Source of the DNA: Microcystis aeruginosa NIES-4325
GTDB lineage: Bacteria; Cyanobacteriota; Cyanobacteriia; Cyanobacteriales; Microcystaceae
Length of the DNA stretch: 64,000 bases
Assembly (NCBI RefSeq): GCF_008974145.1
Contig: NZ_BJKP01000012.1
Coordinates: 1-64,000 of the forward strand
Direction of reading: 5' to 3'
Every line of letters starts with the position of its first letter. Within the stretch, counting starts at the first letter, position 1. Below the pieces are notes generated by a model. The model saw nothing but the letters and a program-made list of their open reading frames with translations. It made no database searches and was not told where the DNA came from. Made by a program: the position numbers and the translations under genes. Of the stretch, positions 23,575 to 59,473 are shown one piece after another.

Positions 23575-23914
23575 AAACTCGGCTAAAGCAGGGAAACGCT
23601 CCTGAGAATTAGATCCGTCTAGCTGTAAGGAGATGTTTCCCTATCGTGTCTGCTCATTTTTGTCAATTACTTGTAATATTTCTTTAATTAATTCTCAGGC
23701 AATTGTTTCTAAGTCAGCAGCCCTGGTAGACTGAAACAGCTAATTTCTGTGTGTTACAGTGTTTCTCCTAAAGATGAAGTGTAACCTAATTTGGTATCGA
23801 AGACCGACTCCCGAAAACGAAAACTTCCTACCTGATCATTAAGATAACTGCTATCAACAGGTTTGGGATCTTGCTTGAGAAAAATTAATTTTTGCTGTCG
23901 GAATGTTCAATTTG
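23575..23914. other. Intergenic region with repeat relics
   Basis: 340 bp between convergent genes. It holds the right copy of the 37-bp direct repeat and, at about 23797-23856, a diverged relative of the 66-bp repeat found in tandem at 55526-55657 (gaccgactcccgaaaacgaa, acctgatcattaagataact). No gene seen. Confidence 0.55.
23653..23689. repeat. Right copy of the 37-bp direct repeat
   Basis: Copy of the HEAT-gene 5' end/upstream sequence, one mismatch in 37. The sequence diverges after ctttaatt, although a ggcaatt remnant continues on both sides. Confidence 0.85.
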
Positions 23915-24755: not shown

Positions 24756-24836
24756 AATTACTGTTTATTTGGTAATTTTATCACTAATTCTTGGCAAGGC
24801 TGCCAATCGTCTTTATAGGTAATGGCTTGTCAAAAC
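24756..24836 (-). pseudogene. Duplicated 3' end of selO (island left boundary)
   Basis: The 81 bp match 35765-35845, the end of the intact selO gene, with 9 mismatches in the same orientation. Translated on the minus strand it reads [18 protein letters not shown] then PNKQ-stop, against [18 protein letters not shown] then QNRQ-stop in intact selO. Frame and stop are thus retained although no 5' part exists. It marks a direct repeat bounding the ~11 kb island. Confidence 0.85.
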
Positions 24837-24967
24837 TAATCCCCATAGCAACAAAACCTGTTTCATTAATTATAATCTGCAATATCGTCGGGCAAAACAC
24901 CAGGGGTGACTTGTTTTTTTACCCTTGTTACTGATCATCTTTAAGCCTTTTTTTAAGTATTGTTGTT
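24837..24967. other. Unassigned sequence inside the island edge
   Basis: 131 bp between the selO tail relic and the DUF2283-module relic. On the minus strand a short open stretch reads VTPGVLPDDIADYN-stop, which could be the end of another small gene, but no start is visible. Confidence 0.3.
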
Positions 24968-25079
24968 TTGATTTTTTCGCGGTGGTTGCCAAAAGACGGT
25001 TAACAATTCCATTTCGGGTTCGTAGTAGATTGTTACTTGTGCCATAGGGTTTCTCCTTCTTTGATTGCATCAGTTTGGT
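24968..25079 (-). pseudogene. Relic of the toxin-like/DUF2283 gene junction
   Basis: Near-copy of about 25618-25729: it carries the end of the upstream small gene (aaggagaaaccctatggcac in minus sense) and the first ~20 codons of a DUF2283 gene (MAQVTIYYEPEMELLTVFW-like), after which the frame is lost. It shows that this two-gene module existed twice and that one copy decayed. Confidence 0.75.
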
Positions 25080-25085
25080 AAATCA

Positions 25086-25214: not shown

Positions 25215-25427
25215 TCAGGATGCGATCGCCGCTTGAGCAATCATATAGTCAATGGCTTGCGGGTTATCAATCCGTTTGGGAGTCTGAAGAATTTCGATGC
25301 CAACGACATTTCGGTTAGAGTCAAAGTCCAGGATAATGCCGGGGGTTTCTTCATCACTCTCGTCAATCTCCACATCCTTGAGGGTAATCCGAATCACATC
25401 TACTTCGGGGTCATATTTGATTTTCAT
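25215..25427 (-). CDS. DUF2283-family small protein, copy 1
   Basis: 70 residues from the ATG at 25427 (MKIKYDPEVDVIRITLKDVE), preceded by a strong GGAGG RBS. The family pattern is K-x-x-Y-D-P-E-x-D, a strand, then PGIILDFDSNRNVVGIEIL. DUF2283 proteins are often partners of small RelE/BrnT-fold toxin-like proteins (family knowledge), so an antitoxin-like role is possible but unproven. It ends directly at a MITE, 36 bp downstream of the second DUF2283 gene. Confidence 0.75.
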   Translation of the reverse strand: MKIKYDPEVDVIRITLKDVEIDESDEETPGIILDFDSNRNVVGIEILQTPKRIDNPQAIDYMIAQAAIAS

Positions 25428-25463: not shown

Positions 25464-25691
25464 TCATAATATTGCTGCCTGCCGACCTATTTCGACGCTG
25501 ACAGTATCAAAACGGTTATCGCTAGGACGATAGGATAAAAGTTCCATGCCAATGGGTTCGCCTGTTGTTTCATCTTTAATTAAAATCACGCCATCACCCA
25601 GTTCTGTGGCAATTTGATTTTTTCGCGGAGGTTGCCAGAAAACGGTTAACAATTCCATTTCGGGTTCGTAGTAGATTTTTACCTGTGCCAT
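25464..25691 (-). CDS. DUF2283-family small protein, copy 2
   Basis: The ATG at 25691 (MAQVKIYYEPEMELLTVFWQ) is used instead of a longer frame; 75 residues. The pattern is GDGVILIKDETTGEPIGMELL as in DUF2283. The start overlaps the end of the upstream toxin-like gene by 13 bp, typical of toxin-antitoxin-style coupling. A decayed copy of its 5' part lies at 24968-25079. Confidence 0.75.
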   Translation of the reverse strand: MAQVKIYYEPEMELLTVFWQPPRKNQIATELGDGVILIKDETTGEPIGMELLSYRPSDNRFDTVSVEIGRQAAIL

Positions 25692-25984
25692 AGGGTTTCT
25701 CCTTCTTTGATTGCATCGGTTTGATAGGCTGTGATTAGAAATCCATCTCCATTTAAGCGTCGGGCGACGGCAACGACCCATCGCTTTTCCTTCAAAGTTA
25801 GGTAAAATAGCAACAGGTTTGGATCGCGGCTACTGCGACGAATTTCATCGGGACTGTTCAGCGCTTGTCTGACTTCGGCTTCGAGGTCGGCAATGTCTGG
25901 ATGTTTGACGATTAGTTTTTGCCAATATTCTTCTGAGGTACGGACGGTGAAGTTGAGGGGAGTAAGGACTTCAAATTTACTCAT
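25679..25984 (-). CDS. Small toxin-like protein (BrnT/DUF4258/PBECR-type fold suspected)
   Basis: 101 residues. The pattern EEYWQKLIVKHPDIADLEAE, SPDEIRRSSRDPNLLLFY, KRWVVAVARRLNGDGFLITA then YQTDAIKEG resembles small RNase-fold families paired with DUF2283; the exact family is uncertain. Its ATG (25984-25982) overlaps the TGA of the methyltransferase-tail relic, so it would be translationally coupled to that tail. The next gene, DUF2283, overlaps its end by 13 bp. Confidence 0.65.
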   Translation of the reverse strand: MSKFEVLTPLNFTVRTSEEYWQKLIVKHPDIADLEAEVRQALNSPDEIRRSSRDPNLLLFYLTLKEKRWVVAVARRLNGDGFLITAYQTDAIKEGETLWHR

Positions 25985-26156
25985 CAGTCATCACCCCCTG
26001 AGTCTCTGCCCATGCGGTATTTGATGTCGTAGTTGATGATGAGGTCGAGTTCTTCGTCGGTGAAGCAGTAGTGTTGGGCAAGGACGCGATTCTCCACAGG
26101 AGAGGCTGCGCCAACGATTTTGTCAATAATGGGTTTTGAGAGGCTTTGAAAAAATA
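25984..26156 (-). pseudogene. Copy C of the methyltransferase gene 3' end
   Basis: Minus-strand frame ...LSKPIIDKI, an 8-residue insertion, then LAQHYCFTDEELDLIINYDI and KYRMGRDSGGDD-stop. It matches the C-terminus of the methyltransferase at 27798; 28 of the last 33 residues agree. Frame and stop are kept but no 5' part exists, and a MITE interrupts the upstream side at 26157. A 24-bp palindromic insertion lies at 26091-26115. Confidence 0.88.
26091..26115. repeat. 24-bp palindromic insertion inside tail copy C
   Basis: Tctccacaggagaggctgcg plus ccaac is absent from the intact methyltransferase, where gcgat is followed directly by cgatttcgtc. The net gain is 24 bp (8 codons), with a CTCC-aca-GGAG core. 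It fits the class of tiny dispersed palindromes described in cyanobacterial genomes (small dispersed repeats in Nostoc). Confidence 0.65.
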
Positions 26157-26273
26157 TATAGCGTTTTTCAGTCTGCTGAGGTACAAAAGTTATGGGTTTT
26201 AGGCAAAAGGCAAGAGGCAAAAGGCAAAAGGGAAGAAAAATAGGTGTACCTCACTAGCTTAGGAAACGCTATA
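26157..26273. mobile_element. 117-bp MITE (TATAGCG ends), copy 1
   Basis: Terminal inverted repeats TATAGCGTTT...GAGGTAC, with TA at both ends as expected for IS630/Tc1-type target sites. Between them is a purine-rich ggcaaaaggcaagaggcaaa core. An apparently identical 117-bp copy lies at 45425-45541. It sits at the broken upstream edge of tail copy C and 8 bp past the hepT stop. No ORF. Confidence 0.85.
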
Positions 26274-26280
26274 GATGGAT

Positions 26281-26622
26281 TCATAAACTTGCTTGTAATT
26301 GTTGTAATGGTTTCATCAGGGGAGAAAGGTTATTTTGAATCGTTGACCAGGTAATTCGTAGATTTACTTGAAAATATTCGTGAGCCATGATATTTCTCAT
26401 GTCACTCATTAGCCGCCAGGGAAGTTCAGGGGCTAAGGCTTGAACGTCAGCAGGAATATTAATCGCGGCTTCACCAATAACAATTAGGTCATAAAGCACG
26501 GCTTTAACGATGGTTTCATCTTGACTAAATTGATTAAAACTCATGTCAGCAGTCCGGCTTTGAATGCTATCAATGGCGTTGAGAATATCTTGAATTCGTT
26601 CTTTTGCAGCTCTAGAAGACAT
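26281..26622 (-). CDS. hepT: HepT-type HEPN ribonuclease toxin (DUF86)
   Basis: 113 residues from the ATG at 26622 (MSSRAAKERIQDILNAIDSI); the longer frame overlaps the partner gene. It has the all-helical HEPN fold with the RX4HXY motif: Arg76, His81 and Tyr83 (RNIMAHEY). In characterised pairs HepT cleaves RNA and is silenced by MntA through AMPylation of the Tyr. The start overlaps the mntA stop by 11 bp, giving a coupled pair. Confidence 0.88.
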   Translation of the reverse strand: MSSRAAKERIQDILNAIDSIQSRTADMSFNQFSQDETIVKAVLYDLIVIGEAAINIPADVQALAPELPWRLMSDMRNIMAHEYFQVNLRITWSTIQNNLSPLMKPLQQLQASL

Positions 26623-26902
26623 GAATGGCTTCCTCCAAAATCGGTTGCCTGAGATGTTCCTTGAGAGCGTCAACTGTCCCTAAGTCAACAGGACATTGAA
26701 AAAGATCTTCCAGATAATGTTTGATGCGAAAAAAATCAAAGAAGCCAATAGATTCATCTAGTTCCACTAAAATATCTACATCACTTTGAGAGTTGGCTTG
26801 ATCACGGGCAACGGAGCCAAAAAGATTGAGCGACTTAACTCCTAACTTTTGTAGCTCCTCTTGGTGAGATTTAACTAGCTTGAGTGCATCCAACTTTCTC
26901 AT
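26612..26902 (-). CDS. mntA: MntA-type nucleotidyltransferase antitoxin
   Basis: 96 residues from the ATG at 26902 (MRKLDALKLVKSHQEEL); longer readings run into tail copy B. The minimal nucleotidyltransferase motif is GSVARDQANSQSDVDILVEL: Gly29-Ser30 and the Asp41-x-Asp43 metal ligands. It is expected to AMPylate HepT. RBS-like aaggtaaaaggtaaaact stretches precede it. It lies about 36 nt after tail copy B. Confidence 0.88.
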   Translation of the reverse strand: MRKLDALKLVKSHQEELQKLGVKSLNLFGSVARDQANSQSDVDILVELDESIGFFDFFRIKHYLEDLFQCPVDLGTVDALKEHLRQPILEEAIHVF

Positions 26903-26937
26903 AGTTTTACCTTTTACCTTGTTACATTTAACTTTCA

Positions 26938-27046
26938 CTATCTCTGCCCATGCGGTATTTGATGTCGTAGTTGATGAGGTCGCCCTTGTTCTTCGTCGGT
27001 GAAGCCCCAATCAGTTTTTGGGTGTTGGGCAAGGATGCGATCGATT
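26938..27046 (-). pseudogene. Copy B of the methyltransferase gene 3' end
   Basis: The + strand tract tctctgcccatgcggtattt through gatgtcgtagttgatga to gttgggcaaggatgcgatcg matches the intact gene end and copy C. Translated it gives IDRILAQH, a 5-residue insertion, then GFTDEE, after which a small deletion breaks the frame. It lies immediately after xisI and before mntA. Confidence 0.82.
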
Positions 27047-27052
27047 CTAAGT

Positions 27053-27388
27053 TTAGGCAATTGCAAACCCCGTATGAAGTCGAACTTCGGGTTCATGGAA
27101 ACCAAGCACGATATCTTCTTTGGGAATGCCTGCTTTAAGGAGTTCATCGGTAATACCATCCTCGGTGCCATCATATTGCACCCAAACTTTTCCATTGGCA
27201 ATTTCAAGGTGCAGTAAAATACTATGCAAATGGCGCTGGTGATCCCAACCTTCAGACAAAATAATATACTGGTCAGTTTCAGGATCAAAGGCAGCACGAT
27301 TTTTGACGTTGACGTTGGCATAGGTAATGTCAGCGTAAGGTTTGAGAACATTACGGATAATTTGCCGATAAGTATTTAAGCGATCCAT
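27053..27388 (-). CDS. xisI: XisI-family protein
   Basis: 111 residues, full-length for XisI: MDRLNTYRQIIRNVLKPYAD, then YIILSEGWDHQRHLHSILLH and KVWVQYDGTEDGI, TDELLKAGIPKEDIVLGFH. In Anabaena XisI and XisH are needed, with the recombinase XisF, for excision of the fdxN element. Here no XisF is present. The start overlaps the xisH stop by 13 bp, indicating coupling. Confidence 0.92.
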   Translation of the reverse strand: MDRLNTYRQIIRNVLKPYADITYANVNVKNRAAFDPETDQYIILSEGWDHQRHLHSILLHLEIANGKVWVQYDGTEDGITDELLKAGIPKEDIVLGFHEPEVRLHTGFAIA

Positions 27389-27792
27389 CGAGTGATAACC
27401 TCCTGATCAGGGTTAAATGTAAACAGCTTTAAAACTTGATTCTCTAAAAGAATTTGTCCGACTTCTTGTTCAAATAATTTTAAGAAGCTGGCATCACGGA
27501 TGGCTAGGTAGAGGGTGCGTTCAGGGTCAATTCGGCTCAGAATGTTTTGATATAAGACGTACTGACCGAGAGCCGTTTCAAGATCGCGAATTTCAGAAGG
27601 ACTGATAAAGCTTTTGATCTCGACAGCTATCTTTTGGGTGTCTTTTTCAGCAGTGATGAGTTTTTCACCTGCTAGATCGATGAACAGATCTTTTCTGCCA
27701 ATTTTTAGGTTGTAGGGATCGTGGGTGATGATCCAACCATCCTTAATCAGAGCTTGTTTGCAGTTGTCGTGATAAATATCTTTGGCTGGCAT
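27376..27792 (-). CDS. xisH: XisH-family protein (endonuclease-like fold)
   Basis: 138 residues, MPAKDIYHDNCKQALIKDGW. GRKDLFIDLAGEKL and KIAVEIKSF supply the Asp and Glu-x-Lys of a PD-(D/E)XK-like nuclease core, then LETALGQYVLYQNIL. Its ATG is 5 nt after the methyltransferase stop, so it is coupled to the R-M-like operon. Biochemical activity of XisH alone is not established. Confidence 0.92.
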   Translation of the reverse strand: MPAKDIYHDNCKQALIKDGWIITHDPYNLKIGRKDLFIDLAGEKLITAEKDTQKIAVEIKSFISPSEIRDLETALGQYVLYQNILSRIDPERTLYLAIRDASFLKLFEQEVGQILLENQVLKLFTFNPDQEVITRWIA

Positions 27793-27797
27793 AGATA

Positions 27798-30700
27798 CTA
27801 ATCCTCTCCTCCGCTATCGCGACCCATTCTGTACTTAATGTCGTAGTTGATGATGAAGTCGAGTTCTTCCTCGGTGAATCCGTAGTGTTGGGCAAGGATG
27901 CGATCGATTTCGTCAATTATGGGTTTTGAGAGTCTTGGCTGAAAAGACTGGATAGTCAAAACACCATATTTACCATAATTATTTGTTAGGTCTTGAGAAT
28001 TTATCTGAAAATCCTGCATTAATTCATTTGCAAGACTACTAAGAGTTGGTACCAACTCAGATTCAATTTCATTCATTGATAGCCTGAATTCTTCAATTTC
28101 TCTTCGGTTAACGTTCCTAACGTCAGAGTAGCAATTAAAAAACCAGAAGAACAGGCTGGAATTCAAGGCAGCAATCGCAACATCCCTTAATACATTAGAT
28201 GAAAAAGAGAGCATCTTTAATTCTGATGGTTCAACTACTTCACCCTGACTATTAACGATTCTGGGTACAAAATCACAAAATTGAACAAAGTATCGAAGTT
28301 TTCTTGTATAATAAATAATACTTCGATTACCCTTTGAAAAGAATGCCTTTAATGGCTTTTGTTCAGACAATCGTGTCAGTATATTAGCCTCTATAGCTGA
28401 AGATATTTTAGGGATTGATGTACTGACTAAATGTAATAAATAATTGTGCTTTACAAATTTAATTTGAGCAAAAAGATTGTCTCTTTCCTCTGCAAGCCAT
28501 CGCTTGTATCCTTCGAGATAAGATAATGTTTGTATTTCTTCACTAATTTTACTTGTAAGCCATATAGTCAAACGTTTCTCAACTCCAGTAAATAATTTGG
28601 AAGGGCGTTCTGCAAAATTCAGGTTCCATGATATATATTTCTGCCCCTTAAGGAGCTTTCGTAAGGAGTCAAATCCATCGGTACTTACGATAGATATGGG
28701 AACAATCATACCGATCCGCCCTTTCTTGAATAAAAGACTTAAAGAACGCTCGATCGTAAATGCATATAAATCCGAGCAGTCTATAGTCTTAAACTCTCGA
28801 ACCCTGTAAGTATTCTGTACATTTTTGTACTCAACATAAGGTGGATTACCGATAATCACATCAAAGCCACCGCGATTAATGATGCTGTAAAACTCCACAA
28901 ACCAATGAAACAGCTGATGACTTTCCTTCCATTTCTGAAAAGCCCCTGACTTTTTCGACAAACCCAACTCATATTCTTCCGCTAAATAGCGATCCAACTC
29001 CTCCCGCAATTGTGCCAAAGCCGCCTTTAATAACCGCTTAGATTCTGCAACATCCGCACCCGCAATAGAATCTTGCACTTGCAGCGACTTAAACCGCTTA
29101 AACTCCATATCCGCCGCCACCGCACCCTGCACAATCCGATTCAACACCCCATCATCAAAAATTAAACGACCTTGCCCGGTTTGGGTATCCCTGGCCATCG
29201 CCTCGCAAACTTCATTCAGCGACGCAAACCCCACCAACGTATTACCCGGCCGAATATTAAAATCAATATCCGGCAACGGTTCCAGTCCAAAGTTTTGCTT
29301 CTTGGGTTGCGGTTCCATCTGCGCCACCAGCTTCAGGAATAGCCGCAGCTTACAGATTTCCGTCGCTTCCTCCATGATGTCCACACCATAGAGGTTGTTG
29401 AGCATGATCGACTTCAGCACAAAATAGCGCGGGTTGGGGTGTTTTGCCATCTCCGCCAACACCTTGCGGAAGTATTCATAACGCGGTTTTGCCTCTGGTT
29501 CCTGTGAGAGCCTCAGATCATCCTCATCGACAAACCCCTGCATCCGTTCCAAACAAGCTGTATAGAGTGGCTCCAGAATATTCAACGCCGCAAACAAAAA
29601 CGCCCCCGATCCACAGGTCGGATCAAGCACTGAAACCTGCTCGATCGCTTGATACAATGCCTTCAGCAAATCCGAACTTTCGCAACTGGTGATCACATCC
29701 TGGGCAAACTGACGAATATCTAGGTTGTAGGTAATCAGGTCATTGATCTGGGTAACTTCTCCTGCAGCCAGTTTTTGCCGCAATTCCAAGCAGCGTTTGC
29801 GCCGCGCCACATACTCCCGCCAGGTTTCTGTGGGTAGGGCAAATCCATCGGCGGCAGGCTTATTCCAGCCGCCTCGTTGCGAGACATCCTCAATACCAGC
29901 GGCAATCTCAGTCGGGAGTTCGATATCTACACCCTGACGAACCGCAGGATAGATGTAATGGTCAGGATTTTCCCGCAGCAACGCCCATACCGCCCCTTCT
30001 GGCTCAAACGCAACCTGACAGCCCTTCTCTGCCTGATCAAATAAAAAGGGAAGAATCGTGTTCTTGCTGATGTATTCGGTGATGTCTTCCTTGGTGTAGT
30101 ACGCCCCCATTTGCTTCTGGTTGATGTACTTCTCAAAGATGTAGCCCAGTACATCCGGGTTAATTTCGTTTTGGTTGCGAAGCGGTCTGTCGTCTAAATG
30201 CCAGTCGTACTCATCAAAAAAACTAAAGACCTGCTCAAACGCTGCATCGGGAATTTGCAGGGTGCTGTCATACTTTTCCTCCAACTGATGGACTTCAAAC
30301 AAGCCGCCATTTAGATAGGGAATTTTGCCCAAGAGTTTCTCTAATTCAGGATTGCGATCGGGCTTGCCTAACCCCTCATGGAACAGCTTCAGCAAAAACT
30401 GTCGATAAAACGAATGAAACGTATCCGTTCCCCATTCTGCCTGACACCGCTTGAGCCGATTTCGCAAATAATTAATATCGCCATCCAGAAAGTTTTTCTT
30501 TTGGATGAAATAAACAAACATCAGCCGATTGAGCATCAGCGAAGCATACCAGGTGCGACCAAATTCTGACTGAATACCTTGAATAAATTGAAGAAATTTC
30601 CCGTGTTCCTTTTCAAATCGGGTAAAAAATTTCTTGGTGACTTTCTCGACATCAAAAGCTTTTTTGACTCGCTGGGCAACTTCCACCAGAGTTAGCTTTT

Positions 30701-31121
30701 CCTCTTCCGCAAAGGCGATCGCCAACGCCTCTAACTTCTGCAACAACCGCTCCGCCGACTGTCCCACCTGATATTGCTCAAATCGAGGGGCGAGGGGTTT
30801 TCCCAGTTCTTGCCGCACCCACATCCAAATTTGTTGGGTTTTGCCCTCATCACCAAATACCAACAGGTGGGATTTGCTGTAGTCCGTCAGTTGGCGATCG
30901 AGCTTCACCCGGATTGGACGGGTTGGAATTTCTGGGGTGATGCACTTGAATACAGTGAAGCCGCGCTTTTGAGTAATAGAAACCACCTCAAAGGGTTCGC
31001 CATCCACCTCAAACGGTAACGTGACGCGATCGACCGTATCCCAGCCCAATTCTTCAATGAACAGAGACTCAAAATCAAACTTCTGGAGATACTTTTGGGC
31101 GCGTTGGCGATTCAGTGGCAT
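27798..31121 (-). CDS. Large adenine-specific DNA methyltransferase (Type IIG/Eco57I-like)
   Basis: 1107 residues. The N-terminal ~330 residues are helical with KIPYLNGGLFE near 266-276. GAYYTKEDITEYI (339-351) and DPTCGSGAF (500-508, SAM-binding motif I) are followed by IIGNPPYVEY (catalytic NPPY 759-762), defining an N6-adenine methylase. The ~300 C-terminal residues resemble a target-recognition domain. No nuclease motif is evident, so cutting may be done by partners (PLD-helicase). It lies downstream of helicase and DUF29 genes on the same strand; its 3' end recurs as copies B and C. Confidence 0.88.
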   Translation of the reverse strand: MPLNRQRAQKYLQKFDFESLFIEELGWDTVDRVTLPFEVDGEPFEVVSITQKRGFTVFKCITPEIPTRPIRVKLDRQLTDYSKSHLLVFGDEGKTQQIWMWVRQELGKPLAPRFEQYQVGQSAERLLQKLEALAIAFAEEEKLTLVEVAQRVKKAFDVEKVTKKFFTRFEKEHGKFLQFIQGIQSEFGRTWYASLMLNRLMFVYFIQKKNFLDGDINYLRNRLKRCQAEWGTDTFHSFYRQFLLKLFHEGLGKPDRNPELEKLLGKIPYLNGGLFEVHQLEEKYDSTLQIPDAAFEQVFSFFDEYDWHLDDRPLRNQNEINPDVLGYIFEKYINQKQMGAYYTKEDITEYISKNTILPFLFDQAEKGCQVAFEPEGAVWALLRENPDHYIYPAVRQGVDIELPTEIAAGIEDVSQRGGWNKPAADGFALPTETWREYVARRKRCLELRQKLAAGEVTQINDLITYNLDIRQFAQDVITSCESSDLLKALYQAIEQVSVLDPTCGSGAFLFAALNILEPLYTACLERMQGFVDEDDLRLSQEPEAKPRYEYFRKVLAEMAKHPNPRYFVLKSIMLNNLYGVDIMEEATEICKLRLFLKLVAQMEPQPKKQNFGLEPLPDIDFNIRPGNTLVGFASLNEVCEAMARDTQTGQGRLIFDDGVLNRIVQGAVAADMEFKRFKSLQVQDSIAGADVAESKRLLKAALAQLREELDRYLAEEYELGLSKKSGAFQKWKESHQLFHWFVEFYSIINRGGFDVIIGNPPYVEYKNVQNTYRVREFKTIDCSDLYAFTIERSLSLLFKKGRIGMIVPISIVSTDGFDSLRKLLKGQKYISWNLNFAERPSKLFTGVEKRLTIWLTSKISEEIQTLSYLEGYKRWLAEERDNLFAQIKFVKHNYLLHLVSTSIPKISSAIEANILTRLSEQKPLKAFFSKGNRSIIYYTRKLRYFVQFCDFVPRIVNSQGEVVEPSELKMLSFSSNVLRDVAIAALNSSLFFWFFNCYSDVRNVNRREIEEFRLSMNEIESELVPTLSSLANELMQDFQINSQDLTNNYGKYGVLTIQSFQPRLSKPIIDEIDRILAQHYGFTEEELDFIINYDIKYRMGRDSGGED

Positions 31122-31181: not shown

Positions 31182-31622
31182 CTAGTTCAAAGTCTGAGGA
31201 AAATTAGGGTCGAAAATTTGCTCTGGTGTGTACTGACAATCGGCGGGTAAATCTTGATCGTCCAAGGGCGTTTCGCGCACCACTAGATCAATCCCAGATT
31301 GATAAGCGTAGGCGATCGCCTCTTCTAGATAAGGCTTGAGGCTAGGGTTTGCTTGCATCAGTCTTTGAATCGCTCGTCGTTGTTCACGAATAGTAGCTTT
31401 CCAGCTTTTGCTACGGCGTTCGGGCTGGTAGTCCCACTTAAGAAGATGACCAAGCAAGATTGCTAAACGGTTCTCTAATTCTTGCCGCTGTTGTTTACCC
31501 AAAGATTCAATTTCCTCGACCAAATTCACAATATCTAATCCCTTAAAATCGCTTATTTGGAGTAACTTAGATTGCTCCAAAGTCCAAGCATAAAAATCTG
31601 TTTCATAGAGGTTGGATTGCAT
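31182..31622 (-). CDS. DUF29-family protein
   Basis: 146 residues with the DUF29 pattern: YETDFYAWTLEQSKLLQ, LVEEIESLGKQQRQELENRL, LLGHLLKWDYQPERRSKSWK. Soluble and helical. Function is unknown; DUF29 genes are very common in cyanobacteria. Its location between helicase and methyltransferase, 60 bp before the latter, could mean a role in the system or a hitchhiking insertion. Confidence 0.82.
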   Translation of the reverse strand: MQSNLYETDFYAWTLEQSKLLQISDFKGLDIVNLVEEIESLGKQQRQELENRLAILLGHLLKWDYQPERRSKSWKATIREQRRAIQRLMQANPSLKPYLEEAIAYAYQSGIDLVVRETPLDDQDLPADCQYTPEQIFDPNFPQTLN

Positions 31623-31847: not shown

Positions 31848-34800
31848 TTAGCCTCTAAATAATCCCATCGAACAGATAATTCGTGCTCCGTCTTGCCGTT
31901 CCTCCGGGTTGATCACACACAAAGCATCATGCTCCCGCAGAAATGTCACCAGTTTTGCCAACTGCTCATCACTGATGCCTGCTTTAAGTTCCCTGTTGAG
32001 GCGAGCGATCTCGCGTAGCGAGCGCGTTGCGACCGCATTTTGCTTTAACGGATGCTGGTTGATTTCTTCGATCGCCCGTGACCGGTTTTCCCATTCCGTC
32101 CCCATGGCCAGTAGAGGCGTGGTTTCACGGATCCGTTGGGTGTAGGCCATCAGGCGATCATAAGTCCGTGCCGCTGCACTGCGCTTATTGCCCAAAGTAC
32201 CCGCCACCGTTTTGGTTTGCTCCGCGATCAGTTCCGCCCCCCGTGTCACGAGTTCATGGTGCTGGGGATGGCGGGGCAAAGGCGGAGTATCAATGCTGCA
32301 TCGCGCCATACGCAAGATTCGCATTTGCGACTGGGTAACACTGTTGCCGTCTTTGTCTACCCATGCCAAAGCATCGGTGCCGCTATCCGTGCGGAGGTAC
32401 AACAACACACCCTCTGGATCAGATACTGTAGATTCATGCTCCCGTGTGGAGTACACCACATCGGGCAGTTTTTCGATCATCCCTTTCAGGGCAGGGTTGG
32501 CATCGATCGCACTTTGCCAGATCTGCAACGCCTCGGAGGTTAGATCCACCTCCCCTTCATCGGCTTCATCCAGCACCCCCGATCGCTCATTATAAAGATT
32601 TAGCAGCATCTCCCGCGCTTGTTCATCCTCAAAAAAGGCTTCATCGGTGCCTACCACTTCTTGATTTTCGTTCAGGCGATCGCGCAAACGTCCCCGCAGG
32701 TTAATCAGCCGTTCCACCCCCTCCGCAGGCAAAAACGAATAGCAGAGAATTTCGTCCGCCTGCTGCCCAATCCGGTCTACCCGTCCTGCCCGCTGAATCA
32801 GACGAATAATCGCCCAGGGCAAGTCGTAGTTGAGAATGATGGCACAATCTTGCAAGTTTTGCCCCTCACTCAACACATCCGTCGCCACCAACACCCGTAA
32901 TTGCTCGGCTGCTGGGATGGATTTTTCATTACTGATGGGACTAAACCGCCAAGCCAGAGCCGTCGGGTCAACCGATTGTCCCGTTGCTAAGCCCACTTGC
33001 TGAATGCCCTGGTCTTCGAGCGCTTTTGCCAGATACCGAGCGGTATCGGCAAACTGAGTGAAAATTAGCACCTTATCTGTAGGATGTTGCTGTTGAAGCA
33101 AATCCACCAATGCTACCAGCTTGCCATCCTCAACTGGGTTCCAACTACCCGCCAGTTGCAAAATTCCAATCAAAGCAGCAGCATCTTCAGCAAGATGCTG
33201 CTGCAACTCTGGACTAAACAGATTGGCACGAATCCACTTAAACCGACGCGGGTATTGATCTCGGTATAAGCGATAGATCTCCGCTGCCCGTTGAGTAAAA
33301 CTCTGCTGCGGGTCAATGTCTTCTTCATCCACAGCCTCAGTTGTCTCTTCAGAACTTTCCCAGTCCTGATTCAGGAGCGAATCGACCTCTTCATCGTTTC
33401 CCACCTCGTCCAGCAATGCGGCATCTTGGGTGCCAATCGGCAGAGGAAGATCGTGGGCGATCGCATGGAGATAGACATAATTCCGCAGAATGTGTCGTTC
33501 CAACGACTGGATAAAGGCAGCACCGCTACTCTCTAATCGCTTGAACAAATTCGTGCGGCAAAAGCCCATCAATCGCTGCCCCGCATGGGAAAGATTGGCT
33601 AACAATTGCTCTTCCTCAGCACTAGCAATCGGACTGGCTAGGGGCGCAATGTATAACCCCAATCCATAGCGGGGCAAATTGAGAGCGTTGATGATATCCA
33701 CCACGCGATCGGCATATAGCCTGGCATAGGGATCGCTCTGGGGTTCTCCAATGATGAATCGAACCGTCTGAGGACGACGGTTCGGGAAATAGGATCGCCG
33801 CCCATCGGCAAATTCCAGATAGTACCGTTCCCCATCCTGTCTGGCATAGGTATTTTTGATAAAACTGCGGGTTCGCCGCACCATGTAGCGACTCATCAAC
33901 TGCTGCCAGTCCTCCGGCTCTGGACTTTGCTCAAATGCCAAGAGCGATCGCACCGGGCTGGTGTTATGCCTGCGGCGAAACTGCATCTCACCGCCAATGC
34001 TGCGAATGTAAGCTTCTGGCTTAATGCCTAAATCGGCATCGGGACGCAAAAATAACTGCAACTGAGCCGACAAGTCCAGATAGGTCTTGTTGTAGGGGGT
34101 TGCTGTCAACAAAATACATCGACTGCCGCTCTGCTCAATGTAATCCTTGATGGCTTGATACCGCTTGCCCTCTTTGTTTCGCAGATTGTGACTTTCATCA
34201 ATCAACACCAACCGAAACCGCGCTGGGACATTGGGCAATTCTTTTTCAACGCGGCTTATGGGAACCACCTTACCCCGCAACCCGTAGCGATCGATGTAAC
34301 CCTGCCACATTTTTTCCAGGTTCTTGGGGCAGATAATCAGCGTACTGGTGCCGTAGTCTTCCTCGCAGAGATGGGCGATTGCGGTTCCCACCAAGGTTTT
34401 ACCCAACCCCACCACATCGCCAATGATCACCCCATTCCGCTTACTGACATGGTGTGCCGCAATCTGCACTGCCGCTTCCTGAAAGGGCAAAAGTCCAAAA
34501 CTGGCAGGAGCGCGATACTGACTCAACCCATCTCGTGCTTCCTGGGACAGGTGATACGCCATTTTTAGATAGACCAAATAGGGTTTGAGCGATCGCCCAG
34601 CCCAGCTTTCATCGATAATTTCCGCTAATTGCTCCGTAATATCCAAGCAAAAGCGATCATCCCAACGCTCTTCAAACCACTGCTCCAGCTTACTTGTATC
34701 ATCCCGATCCACCACTTCCACATTTAGCTCACCCTGAGATCTCAGTCCAGAAAGGGTCAAATTACTGCTGCCCACATAGCCAATGATGGGCGTGGCGCGA

Positions 34801-35246
34801 TCTCGGCGATAAATCAGATACAGCTTGGCATGGAGGGGATGCCGCAAAAACAACTTGACCTGCAATTTGTGGGCGAAGAGTTGCGATCGCAACCGATGCA
34901 AACCCTCCTCATCAGCGGCACTGGGAGCACCATAGGTTAGTTGCTCGCGGAACTCCTGTGCCATCAAGGTTTGTAACCGAATCGCCTGCCCCTGATCAAT
35001 CCGATCTGACTCAACCCCGATTGCTACCGCTTGCCGTAATTCCTCCTTCGGCAAACGGTACATCCCCACCAGCAATCGACAAGCCTGCCCCTCACTACCC
35101 TCAAACCGCTCAATATCGGCATCAATTTGTCGCCATCCCCGCAAATTAAAATAGCCCACACAGAAATCAGCACGGTAGGCTTGCTTCAGGTAATGTTGCA
35201 ACTCAGGCAGGATGGGTTGCTCGATATTGTCGTAAATACTGGACAT
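31848..35246 (-). CDS. PLD-nuclease/SNF2 helicase fusion
   Basis: 1132 residues from the ATG at 35246 (MSSIYDNIEQPILPEL); an in-frame TTG lies 6 codons upstream. In the longer numbering: PLD-like domain at about 10-210 with a single HxK motif (HAK 145-147) and GSSNLTLSG (165-173); Walker A VVGLGKT (284-290); DESH box (356-359); LLTATPYNKT; later FTQFADTARYL and QRAGRVDRIGQ (SF2 motif VI). The architecture recalls the SNF2 helicase of DISARM-like systems, but drmA/drmB are absent. Likely the effector partner of the methyltransferase. Confidence 0.85.
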   Translation of the reverse strand: MSSIYDNIEQPILPELQHYLKQAYRADFCVGYFNLRGWRQIDADIERFEGSEGQACRLLVGMYRLPKEELRQAVAIGVESDRIDQGQAIRLQTLMAQEFREQLTYGAPSAADEEGLHRLRSQLFAHKLQVKLFLRHPLHAKLYLIYRRDRATPIIGYVGSSNLTLSGLRSQGELNVEVVDRDDTSKLEQWFEERWDDRFCLDITEQLAEIIDESWAGRSLKPYLVYLKMAYHLSQEARDGLSQYRAPASFGLLPFQEAAVQIAAHHVSKRNGVIIGDVVGLGKTLVGTAIAHLCEEDYGTSTLIICPKNLEKMWQGYIDRYGLRGKVVPISRVEKELPNVPARFRLVLIDESHNLRNKEGKRYQAIKDYIEQSGSRCILLTATPYNKTYLDLSAQLQLFLRPDADLGIKPEAYIRSIGGEMQFRRRHNTSPVRSLLAFEQSPEPEDWQQLMSRYMVRRTRSFIKNTYARQDGERYYLEFADGRRSYFPNRRPQTVRFIIGEPQSDPYARLYADRVVDIINALNLPRYGLGLYIAPLASPIASAEEEQLLANLSHAGQRLMGFCRTNLFKRLESSGAAFIQSLERHILRNYVYLHAIAHDLPLPIGTQDAALLDEVGNDEEVDSLLNQDWESSEETTEAVDEEDIDPQQSFTQRAAEIYRLYRDQYPRRFKWIRANLFSPELQQHLAEDAAALIGILQLAGSWNPVEDGKLVALVDLLQQQHPTDKVLIFTQFADTARYLAKALEDQGIQQVGLATGQSVDPTALAWRFSPISNEKSIPAAEQLRVLVATDVLSEGQNLQDCAIILNYDLPWAIIRLIQRAGRVDRIGQQADEILCYSFLPAEGVERLINLRGRLRDRLNENQEVVGTDEAFFEDEQAREMLLNLYNERSGVLDEADEGEVDLTSEALQIWQSAIDANPALKGMIEKLPDVVYSTREHESTVSDPEGVLLYLRTDSGTDALAWVDKDGNSVTQSQMRILRMARCSIDTPPLPRHPQHHELVTRGAELIAEQTKTVAGTLGNKRSAAARTYDRLMAYTQRIRETTPLLAMGTEWENRSRAIEEINQHPLKQNAVATRSLREIARLNRELKAGISDEQLAKLVTFLREHDALCVINPEERQDGARIICSMGLFRG

Positions 35247-35764
35247 GGATTTTATACAGAGCAAGATTTTGGGCTGACGTGATTAATCATATTCGGCAGG
35301 TTTTCAATTGGCTAAACGCTACCCTTAACCTAAGCAGCACAACTATTGATTACACGGAAACTTTCTATATAACACTCTCTGGGGTAACGATATGGGTCAA
35401 CTTTTTGTATGTCACTCTATTTAGGCGCAATCGCCAGAAACTTTCCCTATATTACGCCCAAAAACCTGTTAGCCAGATTAGCTTACTGCAAACAGCCTCC
35501 TTTAAGGATACTGATCACAGAATCCTTCCAGAATTTTAGCAAAGATTCTTAGATATGACTGCACTTTGTCACAAAATTTTACTATTATTTTGACACTCTT
35601 AATGGTTAGAAGGGAAACATTGATCGCGAAGTCTGGTCAATTTTTGTCCAACGCATTTCAGGAAACGACCTAAATAAGTAGCTAGACATAATTAATTACA
35701 CATATTTAACGACCTGTTGCCTATTCTAACCAAGAAATTAATTTTGCACCACTACTTATTACTT
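35247..35764. other. Intergenic/island right end, no confirmed gene
   Basis: About 520 bp between the helicase start and selO stop. An 86-codon plus-strand frame (35279-35539) lacks an RBS and recognisable family. The region is AT-rich and probably contains the promoter of the helicase operon. The sequence left of 35765 is island-side DNA. Confidence 0.4.
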
Positions 35765-35845
35765 AATTACTGTCTATTTTGTAATTTTATCACTAATTCG
35801 TGGAAAGGTTGCCAATCGTCTTTATATGTAATGGCTTCCCAAACC
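35765..35845. repeat. selO 3' end, right copy of the island-flanking direct repeat
   Basis: 81 bp including the selO stop; 72 of 81 positions match 24756-24836. It is in the same orientation as the left copy, the arrangement expected when DNA integrates at a gene 3' end and supplies a new tail. Confidence 0.85.
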
Positions 35846-37191
35846 GATTCGATTAGCGGTCTAAGTAAAGCGGTCTTAGGATTATAATGCGTTAAGGTAT
35901 CGCCAATTTGAGCCAAAGAATCTGAGGGTAATTGATTTAAGACCAAACTATATAATTCTCGCCAACGTTGCCAATCAGCTTTCGGTAAATCCATATTTTC
36001 AATAATTAGAGAACTATTTTCTCGCCAACCGTAATTAAATTGTTCACTGAATTGATAGAAAAATTCGTGATAACCGAGGCCAGTTTCTTGGAGAACTTCC
36101 ACGGTTTTGCTGACCAGTAAAGCAGATTCGGGAGTAAAAATATCCTCAAAACCTAACTTTTTAAGCATCATTTTTTGATAATAAAAATTGTAATGCTGGT
36201 CATAGTTAGCCAAAGCCATATCTAACTCTAACAAGGAGACAACCATGGCTAGGGGAGATTGCAGTAACTCTAGATTTAAACGACAGATAAAAGGCTGATT
36301 ACCATAACTATAACGGCCGCCGTAGTCGAAATAAGCCGCCGTAAATTGGGGATTATAGGAAGGAATAAAAGCGTAGGGACCATAATCGAAACTTTCCCCA
36401 GTAATTGACATATTATCGGTATTGAGAACCCCATGACAAAAACCTGCGGCCATCCATTGGGCTGCTAATTTAGCGGTTCTTTCAATCAAAGCGGCGTAAA
36501 ATTTTAAATAGCGCTCGCTATCTTGAGGGTCGATTTCAGGATAATAATAAATAATCACATGATCGAGGAGTCTTTTAATTAAATCACTACGTTTAATATG
36601 AAATAAACGCTCAAAAGTCCCGAAACGAATATGAGAATTACTAACTCGAATCATCACCGAAGATCGCGTCGGGGAAGGTTCATCACCGCGCCAGAGGGAT
36701 TCCCCCGTTTCCACCAAACTGAGACAGCGAGAGGTATTCACCCCTAAACTGCGTAAAGCTTCCCCAGCTAAGACTTCTCTAACTCCACCCTTGAGAGTTA
36801 ACCTACCGTCCGCATGACGAGAATAGGGGGTCCGTCCCGATCCTTTCGTACCAAAATCGTATAATTTGCCATCAATACCCCTAACTTGACCGTAGAGAAA
36901 ACCGCGACCATCTCCCAAGAAAGGATTATACTCGCCAAATTGATAACCGTGGTAACGCAGGGCTAAAAAAGGGGTCAGGGATTGAAATTTACCAAAAGCC
37001 TCGATAAAATGCTCATCTAAGGTTAATTCTGGCTGGATTCCCACCAAAGGTAATAAAGCATTATTGCGAAAACGAAGAGTATAACGGGGAAAATCCGCAG
37101 CCGCAACTTGATCATAGTATTGGTCCCCCAAGTCCTGCATGGCGCTTTCGTAAGGGAGACTGAGAAAGGGATTGGTGAGATGGTCTGTCAT
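35767..37191 (-). CDS. selO: SelO/YdiU pseudokinase (protein AMPylator)
   Basis: The ATG at 37191 ([20 protein letters not shown]) is favoured over the frame start at 37242; 474 residues. SelO signatures: [54 protein letters not shown] and [20 protein letters not shown]. SelO transfers AMP to proteins and is linked to redox stress (family knowledge). The 3' end serves as the island boundary but the gene stays intact. Confidence 0.9.
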
Positions 37192-45202: not shown

Positions 45203-45684
45203 CCAGCTAGAAGCAAAAAAAGGTGCTAATTATAGGGGATAAGTGGACTTTAGCCATCATCCCCAAAATCCCCATAGGTGAATCCTGTTTTAGCGTCCGT
45301 TAGGGAGTTACGATATTGATAGCGGTTCTCCCATCTGTGCGGCACACTTAAACCTTTGCTGATTAAGCTGTTCAGGATCGAGAATGTACCTCGTGTGAAT
45401 CAGAAACGCTATATCATAATCAGATATAGCGTTTTTCAGTCTGCTGAGGTACAAAAGTTATGGGTTTTAGGCAAAAGGCAAGAGGCAAAAGGCAAAAGGG
45501 AAGAAAAATAGGTGTACCTCACTAGCTTAGGAAACGCTATAAATACTGTATTCACGTTTTTTCTCCTCGGAGTCTGGGCAAGTAATTGATTTTCAGGGAT
45601 TGAGATACAATTGCTTCTAGGTCTAGTTTTAAAGTTCCCTATAGCCAAAACAAACTAACATCAATAGGTTTGGTATTTTCGATT
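45203..45684. other. Intergenic region containing MITEs
   Basis: 482 bp. It holds a second TATAGCG-type element (45425-45541). Immediately before it, at about 45317-45416, a related 100-bp element has ends tgatagcggttctc and gaaacgctatatca that pair imperfectly and a gtacctcgtgtgaa inner motif. No gene is recognised. Confidence 0.5.
45425..45541. mobile_element. 117-bp MITE (TATAGCG ends), copy 2
   Basis: Same length and apparently identical sequence to 26157-26273, including the purine-rich core. Termini TATAGCGTTT and AAACGCTATA. The lack of differences between copies indicates recent movement or gene conversion. Confidence 0.85.
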
Positions 45685-58243: not shown

Positions 58244-59473
58244 ATGCGAGTCATAGAGTTTAAGTTAAAGACCAATTCTCACCAAGAAATAGCCATTCAA
58301 GAAGCTATCAGGGTGGGACAGTTCATCAGGAATAAGTGTTTAAGATTTTGGATGGACTCTACCAAAGAAGACAAAGTAAACTATGCTACTTTGTGCCGAT
58401 TAGTCACAGATTTAACACAAAATCCTGAGTTCCCTTTTGTGGGTAAACTTAACTCTATGGCTCGTCAGGCGAGTGTTGAAAGAGCTTGGTTTTCTATATC
58501 CCGTTTCTACAACAATTGTAAAAAGCGCACCGCCCGCGCCGAATCGAATTCGGCGAGCGGACGGAGCAAGAAGGGTTTGGCGAAAAAAGGCTATCCTAAA
58601 TTCAAAAAGTTCTCAAGGTCTGTAGAGTACAAATCTTCTGGTTGGAAATTAACGGAAGATAAAAAGTTTATTCACATCACGGATAAAACAGGGATTGGGA
58701 AGCTAAAACTCATCGGGACTTTTAACCGTCAACTCTTAGACAAAACCACAATCAAAAGAGTCAGGCTTATTAAAAAGGCAGACGGCTTTTATTGTCAATT
58801 TGTTTTAGACATTGAGAGAGTGGAACCGCTTGACTCTACAGGAAAAGAAGTAGGGATTGATTTAGGTTTAAACCATTTCTTGACTGACTCTAATGGGGAT
58901 AAAATTGATAACCCACGGTTTCTTCGTAAGTCTGAAAAAAGACTAAAAAAGGCTCAACGTAAACTCTCAAAAAAGAAAAAGGGAAGCCAAAAAAGGTTAA
59001 AGCAGAAATCTAGAGTAGCCCGCCTTCATTTAAAAGTTTCTAGACAACGTAAAGATTTTGCCGTTAAGACAGCAAAAGCGTTGATCCAATCTAACGATTT
59101 GGTAGTCTACGAGGACTTGAAGGTTTCTAATATGGTGAAAAACCGAAAACTTGCTAAATCAATTCAAGATGCGAGTTGGTCAATGTTCACCAATTGGTTA
59201 GACTATTTTGGAAAAATTCACGGGAAGTTTGTCATAGCGGTAAACCCCCAATACACTAGCCAACAATGCTCTGATTGTGGCAATATCGTCAAGAAAACAT
59301 TATCGATAAGGACACATATTTGTTCTTGTGGTTGCGTTTTAGACCGGGATGAAAACGCCGCTATAAACATACTTCATAAAGCAAATACTGTCGGGCGGAC
59401 AGAAATTCAAGCCCTCGGACAGACTACCCACTGTCTAACAGGTGAAAGCTTGTTAGATAAGGTAACTGGTTGA
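58244..59473 (+). CDS. tnpB: RNA-guided nuclease TnpB of the IS605 element
   Basis: 409 residues: N-terminal domain (MRVIEFKLKTNSHQE), RuvC-I GIDLGLN (Asp206), RuvC-II LVVYEDLKV (Glu290), zinc ribbon (Cys342, Cys345, Cys360, Cys364) and RuvC-III DRDENAA (367-373). In this family TnpB binds an omega RNA from its own 3' end and cuts DNA next to a TAM. Residues about 96-107 (RTARAESNSASG) come from a GC-rich palindrome at 58530-58564. Confidence 0.9.
   Translation: MRVIEFKLKTNSHQEIAIQEAIRVGQFIRNKCLRFWMDSTKEDKVNYATLCRLVTDLTQNPEFPFVGKLNSMARQASVERAWFSISRFYNNCKKRTARAESNSASGRSKKGLAKKGYPKFKKFSRSVEYKSSGWKLTEDKKFIHITDKTGIGKLKLIGTFNRQLLDKTTIKRVRLIKKADGFYCQFVLDIERVEPLDSTGKEVGIDLGLNHFLTDSNGDKIDNPRFLRKSEKRLKKAQRKLSKKKKGSQKRLKQKSRVARLHLKVSRQRKDFAVKTAKALIQSNDLVVYEDLKVSNMVKNRKLAKSIQDASWSMFTNWLDYFGKIHGKFVIAVNPQYTSQQCSDCGNIVKKTLSIRTHICSCGCVLDRDENAAINILHKANTVGRTEIQALGQTTHCLTGESLLDKVTG
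58530..58564. repeat. GC-rich imperfect palindrome inside tnpB
   Basis: CCGCCCGC-GCCGAAT-CGA-ATTCGGC-GAGCGGACGG forms a 35-bp imperfect palindrome (perfect 8-bp core CGCCGAAT/ATTCGGCG). Its GC content is far above the flanking AT-rich tnpB. The frame is kept. Confidence 0.75.

Follow-up and report, generated by a model that had tools for sequence, protein, structure and literature searches.

The spread and piling-up of small toxin-antitoxin modules in genomes is an open question, and a stretch of 64,000 nucleotides from Microcystis aeruginosa NIES-4325 (contig NZ_BJKP01000012.1, positions 1 to 64,000; hereafter the window) raises it in a particular form: what are copies of the 3' end of a restriction gene, here called tails, doing between the small two-gene cassettes that follow the intact gene? 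An initial annotation of this DNA had proposed that the cassettes were added one after another at the end of the gene, each bringing its own tail, so that the gene stayed intact and the older tails were pushed downstream. The comparisons reported here favour another answer, namely that the tails are mosaic joints between cassettes and that homologous recombination at these tails is probably the main driver of the toxin-antitoxin-like cassette array behind this type IIG gene.

The intact gene (27798..31121; this and all other genes and tails of the locus lie on the minus strand) encodes a single polypeptide of 1107 aa with Eco57I and MmeI_Mtase domains, which matched PDLC03628 with 1611 bits over residues 1-1102 and was assigned to the type IIG restriction enzyme-methyltransferases by family models only. 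Its last ~150 bp, inside the intact gene end, constitute tail A (27798-27947). The first cassette starts 5 nt past the methyltransferase stop and consists of xisH (27376..27792; PF08814, E 4e-54) adjoining xisI (27053..27388; PF08869, E 2e-40), a predicted XisH-XisI pair. Tail B (26941..27047), a degenerate and out-of-frame copy with GATCGC 13 nt past the end of the xisI match, separates it from the second cassette, in which the overlapping genes for an mntA-type nucleotidyltransferase (26612..26902; PF01909, E 5e-14) and a hepT-type HEPN protein (26281..26622; PF01934, E 3e-26) would form an MntA-HepT pair. Tail C (25984..26154) contains an insertion of ~25 nt at about 26091-26115 and ends in CAGGGGGTGATGACTGATG, and its stop (25984-25986) shares one base with the ATG of the toxin-like gene of the third cassette (25679..25984) in the motif TGATG. 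The toxin-like protein showed a weak match to PF14076 (DUF4258; E 0.0037, 18 bits, under the cut-off of 25), a PDB sequence search with it returned nothing usable, and ‘RelE’ is used for it as a label only. The match of its DUF2283-like partner (25464..25691) to PF10049 was likewise under the cut-off (E 0.086). Further on lie a DUF2283 gene (25215..25427; PF10049, E 1e-16), which is a further array remnant, and a second, truncated copy of the overlap region of the cassette-3 genes (24967..25080, 94% to 25613-25726, repeat family D1). The 5' edge of tail C abuts a 126-bp repeat resembling a miniature inverted-repeat transposable element (26151..26276, inverted repeat I2, no strand assigned) at the joint with hepT. 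About a dozen further near-full-length copies of this repeat, 81-100% identical, are present in the genome, one of them at 45424-45544.

Three copies of the methyltransferase 3' end are thus found where the initial annotation had placed them, in front of xisH-xisI, mntA-hepT and the toxin-like/DUF2283 genes, respectively. They were recovered both as repeats (D2, pairing 25988-26090 with 27802-27904 at 82% and ungapped; D3, with copies at 26003, 26941 and 27817; D4, at 26071, 27022 and 27885; and D5, at 26110 and 27900) and with a DNA tail profile, which mapped tail A to 27817-27944, tail B to 26941-27047 and tail C to 26003-26154. Recounting bore out its finer details as well, that is, the 5-nt spacing of xisH, the overlap of the toxin-like ATG with the tail C stop, and the 28 of the last 33 residues common to tails A and C (counted by eye). 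Among 64 of 78 named relatives of mixed phyla (the other 14 were left out as the gene ended less than 400 nt from a contig end), the last 200 nt of the gene were copied within the next 5 kb in seven, compared with 2, 2, 0 and 1 of 64 for internal 200-nt pieces of the methyltransferase gene and 2 of 64 for copies of the helicase 3' end within 8 kb. Two loci with a broken reading frame, L064 and L085, also carried tail copies and stand outside the seven. The excess in this mixed set is modest; the strong signal comes from the cyanobacterial arrays.

Of 388 cyanobacterial genomes, 24 contained a match to the methyltransferase at E 1e-100 or better. A tail profile built from 12 tails and run on these 388 genomes detected a tail in 31 of them and at least two matches in 18, of which 16 had two or more on one contig; the tail-guided cassette array postulated by the initial annotation is therefore real and extends far beyond the window. 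The highest tail counts were six in genome G190, five in G133 and four each in G387, G135 and G226, and the tail occurred in 4 of 50 genomes of the window's family and 2 of 12 of its genus. Forty stretches (39 new loci) were fetched and searched with the DNA tail profile, and genes were mapped by means of hand-picked representatives on 37 loci, including the window and L101/L057. Weak matches below 30 bits inside model positions 30-100 were left out, as were both L101 tails in the counts of joints, mosaics, offsets and motifs (the arrangement being the same as in L057), and the single tail of L196 (G366) and two tails of L200 (on the L101 contig) were not carried into later counts. L182, L178, L177 and L200 were taken as the same records as L052, L064, L085 and L101, and each was counted once.

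Arrays of this kind might be misassemblies at short repeats, as the window genome consists of 166 contigs and several of the array genomes are draft assemblies. However, the arrays of G190, G135, G387 and G005 are located on contigs of 6.43, 5.35, 4.26 and 4.44 Mb, respectively, and hence are not short-read artefacts. Furthermore, the joint of hepT type c with mntA type a was found in three genomes and that of hepT type c with the toxin-like gene in two, so that an assembly artefact is extremely improbable.

The units between tails are mostly two-gene cassettes and comprise three kinds of XisH/XisI, four kinds of MntA with five kinds of HepT, several HicA/HicB pairs, toxin-like/DUF2283 and DUF4258/DUF2283 pairs, DUF4258 with a small Cys-rich partner, a PemK-like pair and PIN-type pairs; Pfam was run on representative cassette genes, and the others were named by their match to these, a few by eye. 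A recognised gene followed 57 of 72 tails and none was recognised behind the remaining 15. Where the genes flanking a joint could both be classified (35 joints), 30 of the joints were distinct, or 29 if the xisH2 and xisI2 that follow the DUF2283-like gene are counted together as a single cassette whose xisH is broken. Eight upstream types had more than one downstream partner and nine downstream types more than one upstream partner, the methyltransferase being one of the two upstream partners of xisH1. The DUF2283-like gene, for instance, was followed by a tail and then by mntA type a, mntA type b, xisH/xisI type 2 (twice) or hicA. A common pool of cassettes is thus arranged in variable order, and since the same pairs occur in other orders in relatives, the tail seems to be a joint for shuffling.

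Listing what follows each tail in cyanobacteria, as the initial annotation had suggested, yielded relatives with fewer, more and different cassettes, so that neither of its refuting outcomes, the same order with uniform divergence or a single tandem duplication, holds. A related account has the methyltransferase gene duplicated in tandem, all but the tails deleted and the result passed on vertically. An arrangement reminiscent of it exists in Anabaena sp. FACHB-1237 (L101) and Dolichospermum (L057), where a PIN-type pair separates the full methyltransferase gene from a second copy encoding 927 and 931 aa, respectively (the whole arrangement of full gene, PIN-type pair and second allele spanning 8773-12280 in L101 and 11461-14975 in L057). 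The two copies are only 71-72% identical, however, and hence represent different alleles; a displaced remnant, then, can be long and can come from another allele. For the arrays compared, the differing order and content between genomes and the horizontal sharing of cassettes described below contradict tandem duplication, which we regard as very improbable.

If the tails are joints, their two ends should track different neighbours, and this was observed. Tails mostly comprise the last 70-150 bp of the gene, down to about 40 (L189 keeps 39 nt), and they are mosaic: the 5' part tracks the upstream cassette and the 3' part the downstream cassette. Pairs of tails that share the upstream but not the downstream cassette type were compared with pairs having different upstream types, and at tail positions 36-60 their identity was 0.855 versus 0.736, a difference reached by 0 of 2000 label shuffles, while sharing of the downstream cassette was without effect there (614/2000). 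At positions 50-75 the corresponding numbers of shuffles were 37/2000 for upstream and 735/2000 for downstream sharing, whereas at positions 110-131 the picture was reversed (downstream 21/2000, upstream 432/2000). Both effects were weak at positions 76-115 (53 to 145 of 2000), and the switch from upstream-like to downstream-like sequence did not occur at one position. Two MntA/HepT cassettes of G190 (mntA 84%, hepT 87% identical) illustrate the mosaic: they share an identical run of 89 nt from the end of hepT into the tail, after which they change to different sequences, ahead of xisH in one copy and ahead of a gene of 352 aa in the other. As the 5' part of a tail goes with the preceding cassette, cassettes appear to be exchanged by crossovers inside the tails.

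These data bear directly on the stepwise addition at the methyltransferase end that the initial annotation had favoured. A cassette start does follow most tails, the toxin-like cassette of G006 (L183) is placed directly behind the methyltransferase's own tail, and the window's tail C together with its cassette matches this toxin-like cassette of G006 (L048) over 636 bp at 91.8%. Older tails should then lie further downstream and be less similar to the first. In nine arrays with at least two later tails (the first tail being the methyltransferase's own end in only some of them), similarity to the first tail fell with position in three (L166 with 90, 86, 88 and 80%; L170 with 89 and 83%; L178 with 93 and 87%) but not in the other six (L165 with 91, 92, 88, 92 and 96%; L167 with 91, 93 and 92%; L168 with 90, 91 and 91%; L169 with 88, 85 and 89%; L188 with 79 and 80%; and the window with 85 and 88%). 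The toxin-like cassette, moreover, occupies the first place in L183, the third in the window and the last in L190, and cassettes change partners both upstream and downstream. Nor is a tail simply carried along with the cassette that follows it, as its 5' part belongs with the preceding one. The notion of a cassette array thus stood, while that of ordered addition at the gene end mostly did not, and we consider one-by-one addition an unlikely account of these loci.

The 3' edge of the joint is often exact. In 30 of the 57 tails with a recognised gene, the following gene started exactly 19 nt past the end of the profile and overlapped the stop; this +19 class comprises mntA types a and b, xisH types 2 and 3, two kinds of hicA, DUF4258 and the toxin-like genes, the last two of which may be distantly related. 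It typically has the sequence GGAGGTGATGACTGATG, which we take to be a near match to the complement of the anti-Shine-Dalgarno sequence, and the commonest joint class ends in the ribosome-binding-like GGAGGTGAT plus the overlapping stop. Other types keep offsets of their own, with xisH type 1 starting at +25 in five of five cases and mntA type c at +39 in four of four. An upstream gene type, too, often enters the tail at one point irrespective of the gene that follows: hepT type c at position 4 (5/6), hepT type a at 13-14 (4/4) and xisI1 at 38 (3/4). For 7 of 15 upstream gene types, one copy or more has GATCGC no further than 30 nt from the end of that gene; since other types enter the tail earlier or later, the motif is a lead only.

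Such ends could mean that the tail is just a portable translation start, kept by selection for stop/start overlap and ribosome binding and playing no part in recombination. The GGAGGTGATGACTGATG-type ends before many first genes and the shortest tails, which retain just the 3' end (39 nt in L189), are in keeping with this. However, first genes did not surpass second genes significantly in their anti-Shine-Dalgarno match (p 0.095), there is no overlap with the stop in xisH type 1 or mntA type c, and the 5' parts of the tails with their linkage to the upstream cassette are left unexplained. On balance, a translation start and nothing else seems improbable to us.

A fixed 3' joint in 30 of 57 tails would also be expected if a site-specific recombinase, either an integron integrase or another enzyme, used the tail as its attachment site. 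Integron arrays, as commonly understood, likewise consist of small cassettes in one orientation, often toxin-antitoxin pairs, with a repeated joint of about 60-150 bp, and are reshuffled between strains. Of the array genomes checked, 10 of 17 had an integron integrase over the curated cut-off, as against none of 14 control genomes, and in G190 (L208) the integrase lies about 6 kb before the array's methyltransferase gene. On the other hand, the enzyme is common in the class: at E 1e-60 or better it was present in 130 of the 388 cyanobacterial genomes, and its association was significant neither with tails (14/31 tail genomes versus 116/357 others, p 0.17) nor with multiple tails (10/19 versus 120/369, p 0.08; the 19 being the 18 genomes of the profile census plus G231, with three tails by the DNA profile). 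Multi-tail genomes such as G387 and G005 had none at E 1e-60, though fragments match weakly. The attC signature, taken here as RYYYAAC..GTTRRRY, occurred in 1 of 72 tails with flanks against a shuffled mean of 0.7, and Rfam gave no attC-like match in five array loci, where all of its hits were below the gathering scores; the test consisted of this simple pattern plus Rfam, with no dedicated attC model. Five integrase loci, including that of the window genome (G000), contained neither a tail nor a cassette homologue; the integrase of G000 is located on contig C26 and the array on C12, and in G190 the integrase is found upstream of the array's helicase gene rather than at the array end, attI not having been sought. 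The switch within the tails, furthermore, is not at one position, as noted above. We therefore reject membership in the integrons, given that no attC signature and no significant association with the integrase were found, and retain a functional likeness; unlike in integrons, the joint here is formed by coding sequence, namely the 3' end of the restriction gene upstream. A role of any site-specific recombinase appears unlikely, if slightly less so than one-by-one addition. As a separate observation, the integrase of L209 (contig C26 of G000) has no long direct repeats near it and no tail or cassette homologue around it, and L208 is likewise without tail or cassette.

Homologous recombination between tails would account for the order of the cassettes and the mosaic structure together. 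Copies of the type IIG gene end are the joints between toxin-antitoxin-like cassettes, the 5' part of each junction belonging to the preceding pair and the 3' part to the following one, and cassettes would most likely be gained, lost and reordered by recombination between tails. Exchange might occur inside a single array, with DNA entering from elsewhere, or via excised circles of tail and cassette, and the pairs may function as defence or addiction modules. The comparisons themselves show the arrays, their combinatorial order, the mosaic tails, the horizontal sharing and the exact 3' joints, whereas recombination enzymes, circles or uptake, and the founding of new cassettes are inferred. Because tails share the same gene end, a crossover in a tail can leave the methyltransferase frame intact. 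New cassette types would presumably be founded by rare illegitimate joins, some of them near GATCGC in the tail.

Several points weigh against this proposal. Neither circles nor excision products were observed, nor was any recombination event, and with their short length and their identity of 79-96% to the first tail of the array concerned, the tails make a poor substrate for RecA. The entry point varies within some types, hepT type c entering at 74 in L168, xisI1 at 12 in L177 and the DUF2283-like gene anywhere from 24 to 63. At tail positions 14-40, for which few pairs are available, upstream and downstream sharing both had modest effects (36/2000 and 39/2000), and a simple picture of two halves does not predict the downstream one. 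All of the label shuffles were made without control for genome relatedness, and the cassette classes behind the counts of joints are best matches to hand-picked representatives, the HicB class being mixed (54-57% in L173 and L167). Finally, the same +19 offset recurs in unrelated first genes, so that homologous recombination alone is insufficient; the joints at the start codon need either repeated exact founding joins, or some precise mode of capture, or selection for overlapping starts. These exact joints in unrelated genes remain the hardest fact for the model.

The cassettes also move between lineages, as judged from comparisons of DNA identity. When the six cassette genes of the window were compared with copies outside the genus, 21 of 27 comparisons gave 86-97% DNA identity and the other six 78-85%, whereas the ThiE protein of the window was 53-65% identical to the outside-genus genomes searched and 97% to G413; ThiE is a single marker, compared in 16 genomes that do not include G021 and G027, for which there are cassette comparisons, and cassette DNA is here set against ThiE protein. 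Sharing of the cassettes by horizontal transfer is indicated by these values. The locus as a whole is optional, because G419, a genome of the same genus in two contigs, has the shared flanks (at window positions 35439 and 24967) without it; they enclose about 2.4 kb of other genes instead. A search of plasmids with the window DNA matched six records, two Synechocystis plasmids carrying the toxin-like/DUF2283 pair among them, and a search of phages gave no match. In the Synechocystis plasmid pSyn7339_1 the toxin-like/DUF2283 pair follows a methyltransferase whose C-terminus is different, the two being fused by a GTGA overlap. A pair placed at such an exact overlap behind another C-terminus suggests that the edge of the cassette may itself be precise, irrespective of the tail sequence. 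Alternative methyltransferase C-termini, ending in or near ..AYRD.., were noted in L165, L170, L171, L181, L192 and L213, followed by tails or tail arrays, with the toxin-like cassette immediately behind in L213; tails or cassettes behind such C-termini suggest swaps of the whole C-terminal module.

Empty and INTERMEDIATE forms of the locus exist too. L198 (G211) has a tail followed directly by a DprA-like open reading frame (ORF), a DprA-like match starts no more than 30 nt past the stop in 7 of the 64 loci, of several phyla (L054, L059, L075, L100, L110, L111 and L118), and in cyanobacterial arrays a DprA-like gene often comes after the last cassette (L165, where it is PF02481, L172, L177, L178, L183 and L190). 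With a DprA-like gene either directly behind the tail or after the last cassette, the cassettes fill the space between the methyltransferase gene and the DprA-like gene. The combination of helicase, type IIG methyltransferase and DprA-like gene in L198 and the seven loci may be a defence operon in its own right. Outside cyanobacteria, displaced tails were detected behind an OLD-like gene in Clostridia (L055) and behind other genes in Caldilineaceae (L069) and Chloroflexi (L087), which suggests an older and more widespread principle; L088 has a short repeat 91 nt past the gene. A Chloroflexota plasmid (L214, NZ_CP128403.1) carries an ORF of 344 aa that ends in a tail and is overlapped by a CBS-domain gene.

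Upstream of the methyltransferase gene, on the same strand, the window contains a DUF29 gene (31182..31622; PF01724, E 5e-52) and a gene combining phospholipase D (PLD) and SNF2 helicase domains (31848..35264; SNF2-rel_dom, Helicase_C and PLDc_2), whose best PADLOC match was C3a139 HKD+Snf2 with 156 bits. Similar sequences of ~80 nt flank the restriction locus at 24756-24834 and 35772-35850 and are perhaps tied to insertion of the island. A repeat of ~100 nt at about 23754-23854 has many matches in each of 12 genomes of the same genus, and a TnpB family RNA-guided endonuclease gene is located at 58244-59473.

Among systems other than integrons, the orphan toxin-immunity modules of contact-dependent inhibition (CDI) and Rhs loci resemble these arrays in that displaced parts lie behind a full-length gene, are homologous to it and can recombine with it. 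Their homology, however, is at the 5' side of a toxin domain that is fused into the main protein, whereas here whole, unfused operons lie past the stop; in the joints inspected, the tail stop overlaps or precedes the next start, and no homology block is fused in frame upstream of a toxin domain. Islands at the 3' ends of genes, such as the staphylococcal cassette chromosome (SCC) in rlmH and islands in tRNA genes or guaA, are generally held to leave the target gene intact and, upon tandem insertion, repeated ends. Unlike in these, no recombinase gene was recognised among the mapped cassettes, and the repeat here is mosaic and up to ~150 bp long. The nearest published case, as far as the accessible text of the report goes, is that of M. 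aeruginosa PCC 7806, in which a toxin-antitoxin pair behind the MaOC1 gene is flanked by two direct repeats of 152 bp (PMC7935541). It shares with the present locus the pair behind a gene, the direct repeats and the genus, and differs in that its repeats begin 14 bp past the stop and are not the gene's own tail, and in that the portion available describes one pair and no array (PMC7935541). The accessible parts of PMC7935541, PMC4963859 and PMC8262939 do not describe a tail-jointed cassette array, nor did a literature search, with most subscription journals and preprints outside its reach, return any description of such arrays. The tail-jointed array is a variant of the cassette-array kind that has a fair chance of deserving a class of its own.

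Whether recombination at the tails amounts to a cassette system free of any recombinase, in which the conserved 3' end of a restriction-modification gene is both the homology joint and the translation start for captured toxin-antitoxin operons, is a proposal that we put forward tentatively, with nearly as much in its favour as against it. The locus lets the spread of toxin-antitoxin modules be read directly, from a common pool, exact joints and reordered arrays in many cyanobacterial families, and it connects restriction-modification loci and addiction-type modules by a concrete route. Besides integrons, this would be a second way in which gene cassette arrays are built, with a coding gene end in place of a dedicated site. 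If the recombinase-free system proves true, a defence gene would collect and trade addiction or defence modules across cyanobacterial families while itself remaining unbroken.

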